A stretch of 64,000 bases of DNA, from assembly GCA_945905925.1 (NCBI GenBank), contig CAMDQN010000013.1, positions 1-64,000 of the forward strand. The letters run 5' to 3'. Made by a program: the position numbers and the translations under genes. This stretch comes from Singulisphaera sp. GP187 (GTDB lineage Bacteria > Planctomycetota > Planctomycetia > Gemmatales > Gemmataceae). Of the stretch, positions 27,881-29,034 are shown in pieces (position 1 is the first letter of the stretch; each line of letters opens with the position of its first letter). Below the pieces are notes generated by a model that did not search any database, had not been told where the DNA came from, and saw only the letters and a program-made list of their open reading frames with translations.

Positions 27881-27968
27881 AAAGGCGAGCGGGGGCGTAA
27901 GCCCTGTTAAACGTGTTCGCTTAGTGTAGCGAATGCGTTTAACAGGGCTTACGCCCCCGCTCGCCTTT
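27881..27968. repeat. Perfect 33-bp-arm hairpin element (GGCGAGCGGGGG family)
   Basis: The arms 27881-27913 and 27936-27968 are exact reverse complements, and the stem continues into the loop via TTCGCT/AGCGAA. It ends one base before the stop codon of the candidate selenoprotein gene and starts 12 bp upstream of the aminotransferase ATG. The end sequence GGCGAGCGGGGGCGTAAGCC is shared, with mismatches, by the element at 51542-51626, so this is a repeat family rather than a one-off terminator. Confidence 0.9.
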
Positions 27969-27969
27969 G

Positions 27970-29034
27970 TCACTTCGTGTTGACCGGGAGCGTGGACACC
28001 TTCTCCTTCAGCACGTCCTCGAACACGATCGTGAAGAGTTGCGACAACTTCGGCAGCGGGTAGTACGCGAGCAGCGCGTGAACCTGACCCTGGTTGCCGA
28101 GTCCGCGACCCGCGTTGGTGCGGAGTTGGTTGTTCGTCGGCACCGGCGGCGGACCGTTCAGAATCGCCGGCAGCGTCTTCGGTGGCAGCGTCAAACTCGA
28201 TTCCGACGCGAGCCGTTCCAGGTGACCTTTGCGAAGCGCCGCGCGGTACTTCGCCGCGTCGCCGCCGGCTTCGCTCGCCGCGAGCTTCCGCAGATCGACC
28301 GCCCAGCGCGCCTCGCGCAGGAACGCTTGCGCGCCGAGCGGACCCGCGACCGCGTGAATCACGGTGCCGTCGCTCAGGCAGAAGTACGCCACGACGTTCC
28401 CGCCGACCTTCACCCCGCTCACCACGCGGAACGTGCCGACCTTCTGGTACGTCGATTCAAAGTTGTCGCCGAGGAACTTCCCAACCGCGTCATCGGACAA
28501 GGCTCCCACACGGAGAGCTTGAGCGTTGTTTCACGTGAAGCCCGGGTCGTCGAAGTGCCCGGAGATGTGCAGCACGAGCAGCAACTTCTTGGAGGTCTTT
28601 GCTTCTTCGGCCGCTTCGGGCATACCGGCGTGGAACTTCACCTTAGTGTTGAACGTCTGGCACCGCTCGGCGGGCATCAGTTCGCTCGCGGGCAGTTTGA
28701 AGTCCGGCACCGCGGGCGCGGCGACAACGACCGGTTCGCCTGGCGTTACGACCGGAACCGCAATCGGCACCGCGACAATCTGAGTGCGAATCACGATCTC
28801 GCGCGGCATTGGGATCGGTTCATCGGGCAAGGAACCAGGAGGCGGAAGATCGGGGGGGACGAGTTCGAGACTTGCGAACAGTGAGACCGTCGGTGCGGCG
28901 GGACGCGTCACGACGACGCCCGTGAGGAACGCCCAGAGCGGCAGCCCGATCGCGGCGACCGTGCGCCAGTCGATGATCTTGAGGAACCCCGCGCGCGCGG
29001 TTGGAACCGGGGCGGGTTTTGGAACCGATGACAT
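27970..29034 (-). CDS. Membrane-anchored thioredoxin-like protein with in-frame TGA: candidate selenoprotein
   Basis: Read through the single TGA at 28533-28531, the product has 354 residues. The ATG at 29034 follows an AGGGAG ribosome binding site. Residues 25-42 form an N-terminal membrane segment, followed by a Pro/Val-rich linker. From about residue 130 a thioredoxin-like pattern appears: the strand LLLVLHISG (151-159), loop HFDDPGFT, codon 168 TGA, then an N-terminal helix starting NNAQALRV and a strand pair VGGNVVAYFCLSDG. In thioredoxin folds this loop-to-helix position holds the redox Cys. Both halves share one frame, and the downstream 186 codons keep good coding character. The alternative is a Cys-to-stop mutation or a read error. 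Family not recognised. Confidence 0.7.
28498..28533 (-). promoter_or_regulatory. SECIS-like hairpin after the in-frame TGA
   Basis: In the sense strand, TGA (28533-28531) is followed by nine nucleotides, then a stem: CAAGCTCTC (28521-28513), loop CGTGT (28512-28508), and GGGAGCCTTG (28507-28498). It has nine pairs including one G-U, with a single C bulge at 28501. The loop begins 18 nt after the TGA and has G at its second position. From memory, bacterial SECIS elements need a loop with an early G, about 16-37 nt downstream of the TGA. The match is good but not unique, since GC-rich coding sequence folds easily. Confidence 0.55.

Follow-up and report, generated by a model that had tools for sequence, protein, structure and literature searches.

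The usual way to detect a selenoprotein is to pair it with Cys homologues, which are far more common. Proteins without such homologues may be filtered out, as the authors of deep-Sep point out (PMC12013277). Some of the described families are thioredoxin-like, namely the VPGUxxT selenoproteins (NF041382/NF041383) as well as the Trx7/PDZ domain (seleno)protein NF041199, which Table 1 of a 2026 review lists with CxxU alongside other Trx-fold selenoproteins with Sec in the active-site loop (PMC13188914). Among the nearest solved folds to the protein described here are those of DsbD-gamma and of the DsbH/Thioredoxin_7/AGR2-3 group, extracytoplasmic proteins in which a redox Cys stands before the first active-site helix, accompanied by a resolving Cys and a cis-Pro. 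Within the Planctomycetota, Sec-insertion genes have been reported in Gemmata obscuriglobus and Isosphaera pallida, and the supplement of the same study lists selenoprotein candidates of two other planctomycetes (PMC4807772); no word beginning with planctomycet or Gemmat occurs in the main text of the 2026 review (PMC13188914). Here we describe a planctomycete gene that very probably encodes a selenoprotein, with UGA codon 168 decoded as selenocysteine.

Gene structure

The window, that is, the whole stretch of DNA analysed, comprises 64,000 nucleotides of a contig from Singulisphaera sp. GP187. On its minus strand, a frame runs from 29034 to 27970, with an ATG at 29034 and a terminal TGA at 27972-27970, and its product has 354 residues before the stop, counting Sec at 168 (Table 1). 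The sole internal stop is the TGA at 28533-28531, which has 167 codons on its 5' side and 186 on its 3' side. The initial annotation had joined the two halves around this codon into one frame, and our reading-frame check agrees: there is no further stop before the terminal one, and both peptides quoted in that annotation, HISGHFDDPGFT and NNAQALRV, are found in the translation. From its sequence, the hydrophobic stretch near the N-terminus is a probable anchor that would hold the protein in the membrane.

Table 1. Features of the selenoprotein gene, in window coordinates.
Feature	Position	Strand	Basis and remarks
Whole coding frame	27970..29034	-	354 residues, Sec at 168; start matches the Gemmata sp. 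IIL30 relative L138 in the alignment
In-frame TGA, very probably read as selenocysteine (Sec168)	28531..28533	-	Frame, paralogue, homologue alignment
Putative SECIS hairpin GCUCUC-CGUGU-GGGAGC	28502..28518	-	Apical loop 28512-28508; loop start 18 nt after UGA
Probable membrane anchor near the N-terminus (residues 26-42, hydrophobic)	28909..28959	-	Sequence reading
Proline-rich linker, about residues 43-123	28666..28908	-	Sequence reading
Thioredoxin-fold domain (predicted), residues 124-253	28276..28665	-	AlphaFold2 model, fold matches, conservation; Sec168, Asn at cis-Pro position, Cys219 (YFC)
C-terminal region, residues 254-354	27973..28275	-	Helical in the modelled part (to residue 305); conserved in close relatives

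Two further features lie at the locus. Directly after the gene there is a 41-nt inverted repeat (window 27881-27968; 95% complementary, 6-nt gap), a possible terminator or small mobile element, and an 18-nt piece of it is present within the window in its two arms only. A long open frame also runs antisense to the gene (window 27967-28884, plus strand) and recurs at 40 of the 68 loci L136-L203; it is probably a by-product of G+C-rich codon use.

Homologues and selection

The window's genome holds a paralogue (L002) that is 49% identical over the matched stretch, carries a TGA at the same column (GLT-U-NNAEALR) and has what looks like an N-terminal signal peptide in its sequence. Matches were found in 48 of the 102 genomes of the order, each with at least one match holding an in-frame TGA (table read by eye), and in 75 of the 392 genomes of a phylum sample, where a hand tally gave 56 with a TGA-bearing match and 19 with TGA-less matches only; one genome of this sample holds seven TGA-bearing matches. 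Named species genomes, when scanned, yielded 68 loci, all with titles that we take to be planctomycete names, and the closest to the window is that of Gemmata sp. IIL30 (82%).

With all stops read open, the codon-168 column of 175 aligned rows is TGA in 146, TGC in 18, TGT in 3, another residue in 5 and a gap in 3, and in no row is it TAA or TAG. These are counts of fetched rows, made up of 90 loci for 125 listed phylum places plus the loci of the order, with the duplicate loci L001, L003, L026 and L106, the machinery loci L004-L025 and the named loci L136-L203 (many of them the same contigs as other rows) set aside. The rows with Cys codons include CxxC relatives and a sister clade, as would suit the Cys-to-Sec replacement suggested at the outset: 11 rows of the sister clade read S-C-ANSR where Sec forms have C-U-ANGR or C-U-TNAR, and the first, attacking Cys of CxxC thioredoxin relatives (e.g., ADW-C-HFC and AT-C-HWC) aligns with the Sec. 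Outside this column, the matched stretches of the 175 rows contain one TAA and no TGA, and for lack of any other TGA we reject a general reassignment of the stop codon.

We then placed 168 of these rows (144 Sec, 20 Cys and 4 other) in a maximum-likelihood tree with a midpoint root, leaving out duplicates, rows with a gap and rows shorter than 85 residues. The ANSR Cys rows belong to a fully supported group of 14 that includes three Sec rows, and this group lies within a starred group of 27 whose other members are Sec; one Sec row is placed weakly among the Cys rows. Because the Cys group is nested in Sec forms, the tree points to a Sec-to-Cys change in the ANSR clade, on a midpoint root only. 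The window's clade consists of 77 Sec rows and two others (Ala and Ser), with no Cys form among its 79 rows. It is therefore the kind of clade that methods based on Cys/Sec pairs lose, which would explain its having been missed.

Several loci depart from the common pattern. The two rows of the window's clade with Ala or Ser at the Sec column (L073 and L083) keep the YFC motif and are perhaps non-redox paralogues. Loci L103 and L104 each have two thioredoxin domains with an in-frame TGA per domain (motifs UMGS and CULAG). In one genome of the same genus, some 40 kb separate the two pieces of a window-type gene (L084 and L085, at about 4082600 and 4123365 of contig C1), as if a large insertion had split it. 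Around the 68 named loci we recognised no redox partner; the neighbours include queE at three loci (76-85% identical) and a class-III aminotransferase at one (86%). The one unrelated recurrent neighbour recognised by eye is a gene that we take from its sequence to be serpin-like, which stands beside the selenoprotein gene in five of the 68 (L151, L159, L161 and L172 among them), while other clusters overlap the gene, lie antisense to it or carry no identification.

Against Gemmata sp. IIL30, the thioredoxin part has a dN/dS of 0.12 before the TGA and 0.06 after it, the N-terminal 108 residues have 0.20 and the C-terminal part has 0.23. The more distant relatives L136 and L137 give 0.20 and 0.30 after the TGA and 0.24 and 0.51 in the C-terminal part, and in all three pairwise comparisons dN is higher in the N-terminal 108 residues than in any of the other three parts. 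The codons 3' of the TGA are under purifying selection, which is in keeping with the earlier observation that these 186 codons form an open and protein-like sequence. Apart from the stop codon being there at all, we found nothing to suggest that the gene is a pseudogene, has recently acquired a nonsense mutation or contains a base error, and we give this reading a negligible probability: the same TGA stands in 146 of the 175 rows, dN/dS is low on both sides of it, and its recurrence in many assemblies argues strongly against an error of sequencing. With a recurrent TGA and purifying selection, we reject it.

Translation might also stop at the TGA and restart at the in-frame GTG at 28509, from which a 179-residue frame is open, so that the gene would yield two polypeptides. 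We consider this highly improbable. In the predicted model, the break would separate the active-site helix of the thioredoxin fold from the first central strand, and the GTG is not conserved, being present in 59 of the 79 window-type rows (GCG in 9, GAG in 8, others in 3). The TGA, by comparison, is conserved and is replaced by Cys codons and never by TAA or TAG. As the fold would be cut and the restart codon is not kept, we reject the split gene.

Selenocysteine machinery

The window's assembly (6.47 Mb in 251 contigs, 96.6% complete) contains selA, selB, selD and tRNA-Sec, the genes that had been named as the test of the initial annotation. SelA scores 555.6 bits, SelB 365.4 bits over its frame and SelD 387 bits, each above its curated cut-off; the tRNA-Sec scores 69.5 bits, also above the cut-off, and ARAGORN calls it tRNA-SeC(tca). 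The tRNA-Sec covariance model has two further matches in this genome: one of 49.8 bits (L005, contig C5, 83745-83849), above the cut-off and about 18 kb from the first, where ARAGORN called no tRNA, and one of 47.8 bits that is a tRNA-Ser.

In the phylum sample, selA was found in 246 of 392 genomes at E ≤ 1e-20 (239 over the cut-off). It is present in 50 of the 56 genomes with a TGA-bearing match, compared with 186 of the 317 without any match (Fisher p = 4e-6) and with 10 of the 19 that have TGA-less matches only (TGA-bearing versus TGA-less, p 0.0015). The six TGA-bearing genomes in which selA was not found are all drafts, 67-91% complete. Nearly every genome of the order has selA (90 of 102; 45 of the 48 with the family and 45 of the 54 without), so co-occurrence discriminates little there; two of the three family-bearing genomes of the order in which it was not found are 92% and 95% complete.

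Downstream hairpin

Published limits for the bacterial SECIS are a loop of 3-9 nt with G in its first two places, a stem of 4-16 bp, a distance of 16-37 nt from the UGA and an MFE ≤ -7.5 (PMC13188914). The hairpin after codon 168 lies within them, with a 5-nt loop (CGUGU), 6 bp, a distance of 18 nt and -7.6 kcal/mol for the 19-nt hairpin; it lies within the coding sequence and starts 12 nt after the UGA. The pairs 12-28, 13-27, 14-26, 16-24 and 17-23 are all formed in 94.7% of 76 distinct window-type sequences; in 500 codon redraws that kept the amino acids, all five were formed in 19.2% on average and 32.9% at most. Pair 14-26 is GC in 59 of the 76, CG in 5, AT in 4, TA in 3, GT in 2 and unpaired in 3, and the window itself has the compensatory TA (U-A in the RNA) where most window-type relatives have G-C. 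When the 3' side was shuffled 1000 times and six pairs were scored, among them the weak pair 11-29 (formed in 38 of 76), the observed value was 0.899 against a mean of 0.853 and a maximum of 0.875, which is less telling because the columns are conserved; slid versions of the pair set score 0.26-0.53.

The codons that follow the TGA are frozen at synonymous sites in the 79 window-type rows. Over the loop, the Arg codon at +7 is CGT in 71 of 79, CGG in 5, AGG in 2, AGA in 1 and never CGC, while Arg codons of the flanks are CGT in 1 of 34 and CGC in 16 of 34 (Fisher p 8e-20; p-values serve as guides only, because the rows are related). The invariant AAC at +1 (79 of 79) is less telling, because most Asn codons of the flanks are AAC as well (100 of 123).

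Among sequences that extend at least 63 nt past the codon, 134 of 144 distinct Sec sequences have a hairpin that fits the published limits, and in at least 111 of them the loop is at 18 or 23 nt. By motif type, it occurs in 70 of 76 window-type sequences (58 with the loop at 18 nt), in 13 of 14 CUTNAR and 4 of 4 CUANGR (all at 23), in 27 of 29 USAG (21 at 23) and in 20 of 21 classed as "other" (14 at 23). The Cys-bearing SCANSR sister clade has lost the hairpin (0 of 11), though its peptide is nearly the same. The search is permissive, since 9 of the 15 non-Sec rows that do not belong to SCANSR also pass the energy limit (CxxC 5 of 9, others 4 of 6), at scattered distances; what counts is therefore the fixed position. 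In the isolated 40-nt RNA of the window, a competing pairing (-11 kcal/mol) is preferred over the family hairpin, the z-score is only -1.49, and 18 of 200 shuffled sequences reach a fold as good; the 5' strand of the competing pairing would presumably be covered when a ribosome pauses at the UGA. An Rfam search of the region gave one match only, far below the gathering score.

A UGA can also be read through without selenium, by a near-cognate or reassigned tRNA that inserts Trp or Cys, and an open, conserved frame after the TGA fits recoding of any kind. We regard this as very unlikely here: tRNA-Sec, SelA, SelB and SelD are present, the matched stretches contain no TGA elsewhere and a single TAA, and the UGA is followed by a hairpin of bacterial SECIS layout that is lost in the Cys clade. 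The machinery, the TGA/Cys column, the hairpin, the selection and the predicted fold described below support the thioredoxin-like selenoprotein that had been put forward as a candidate.

Fold and active site

The AlphaFold2 model (pLDDT 89.9, pTM 0.81) predicts a thioredoxin fold, in which Sec168 directly precedes the first active-site helix. This is the loop-to-helix turn at which the TGA had first been placed. Structural neighbours include 3f9u (Z 13.0, rmsd 2.0 over 106 residues), 3ira (12.4), 2lst (11.7), the DsbH-type domain 7tkv (11.3), AGR3 (10.4), AGR2 (10.2), DsbH (10.1) and DsbD-gamma (up to 9.8). Foldseek E-values are modest (best 1.1e-3), and a profile search of the PDB gave nothing better than E 0.028. 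The protein thus resembles DsbD-gamma and the DsbH/Thioredoxin_7/AGR2-3 group in fold (Z about 9-13), in the place of the redox residue and, as we infer, in an extracytoplasmic setting, but it differs from them in having Sec for Cys, Ala for the resolving Cys, Asn for the cis-Pro and a longer loop before the Sec. Among 78 window-type Sec rows, Ala stands at U+3 in all 78 (U-N-N-A) and Asn takes the cis-Pro place in 77, with one gap; neither a CxxC active site nor a cis-Pro was seen in these rows. Cys219 (YFC) is kept in 76 of the 78, and a Cys lies 25-55 residues before the Sec in 67 of 72 window-type rows. In sister rows, an adjoining Cys-Sec pair is found in 12 of 14 CUTNAR, 4 of 4 CUANGR and 12 of 21 "other" rows.

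The family had not been recognised at first sight, and the window protein indeed has no match in Pfam at E ≤ 1 or in NCBIfam at E ≤ 10. It does not reach the gathering score of Thioredoxin_7 (PF13899) or Thioredox_DsbH (PF03190), five relatives tested were below the cut-offs, and at E ≤ 0.1 each of these two families picks up 2 of the 22 A1 rows. The profiles of the VPGUxxT selenoproteins have no match at E ≤ 10 in the window protein or its paralogue. They match two relatives weakly, the CUTNAR row L112 (E 0.0017, 18.1 bits) and L086 (E 0.016), but the better of these stands at 18.1 bits against a cut-off of 275 bits, and the motif of the window family is not VPGUxxT. Row L112 also matches NF041199 at E 0.12, a protein that differs in its CxxU motif.

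Proposed function

SelB and tRNA-Sec would decode UGA168 as Sec under the direction of the downstream hairpin in the coding sequence. The product would be anchored in the membrane and probably extracytoplasmic, with a thioredoxin fold of the DsbD-gamma/DsbH type in which Sec stands where CxxC has its attacking Cys and the resolving position is Ala. In a cycle with one selenol, the selenolate would attack either a disulfide or some oxidised substrate. Another thiol would then resolve the bond; it may come from a partner or from the protein itself, in which Cys125 and Cys219 are conserved. Taken together, the fold, the Sec position, the Ala at U+3 and the conserved Cys suggest an extracytoplasmic oxidoreductase that works through a selenol and whose motif lacks the usual resolving Cys. 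We lean towards selenol-based thiol-disulfide oxidoreductase chemistry. The conserved Sec codon, the machinery, the hairpin, the selection and the predicted fold come from computation, whereas the location, the direction of the reaction, the resolving thiol and the substrate are inferred.

A selenoprotein of the same fold might instead be a peroxidase or a selenium- or metal-handling protein, whose lone selenol reduces peroxides or binds a ligand. The invariant Ala at U+3 and the Asn in the cis-Pro place are both unlike classical disulfide oxidoreductases and would suit such a role. However, the nearest solved folds are mostly of disulfide oxidoreductase type (DsbD-gamma, DsbH and putative disulfide isomerases), and the neighbouring Cys-Sec pair in several sister rows suggests thiol redox work, so that we hold this alternative to be possible but doubtful beside thiol-disulfide chemistry.

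Conclusions

Among the 119 prokaryotic selenoprotein families in Table 1 of the 2026 review (PMC13188914), we saw no entry that fits, and no description of the family was found in the literature by title or the start of the abstract; an earlier mention in supplementary tables is possible. The family appears to be a previously unlisted one among the Trx-fold selenoproteins, unusual in being Sec-dominated and phylum-wide. The gene in the window is probably one twig of a thioredoxin-fold superfamily of the Planctomycetota in which Sec is usual and Cys the exception, with at least five motif types (T-UNNA, CUTNAR, CUANGR, USAG and CULAG/UMGS) and some proteins with two Sec domains. Because searches based on Cys homologues would skip much of this superfamily, the phylum may be overlooked as selenoprotein-rich. 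For the window protein itself, annotation that takes the UGA as a stop would truncate it at residue 167. If our reading is true, a Sec-dominated, phylum-wide thioredoxin family would enlarge the known use of selenium by bacteria, and, as nature supplies it with Sec clades that have the hairpin and a Cys clade that lacks it, the family would offer a setting in which to test the value of selenium.
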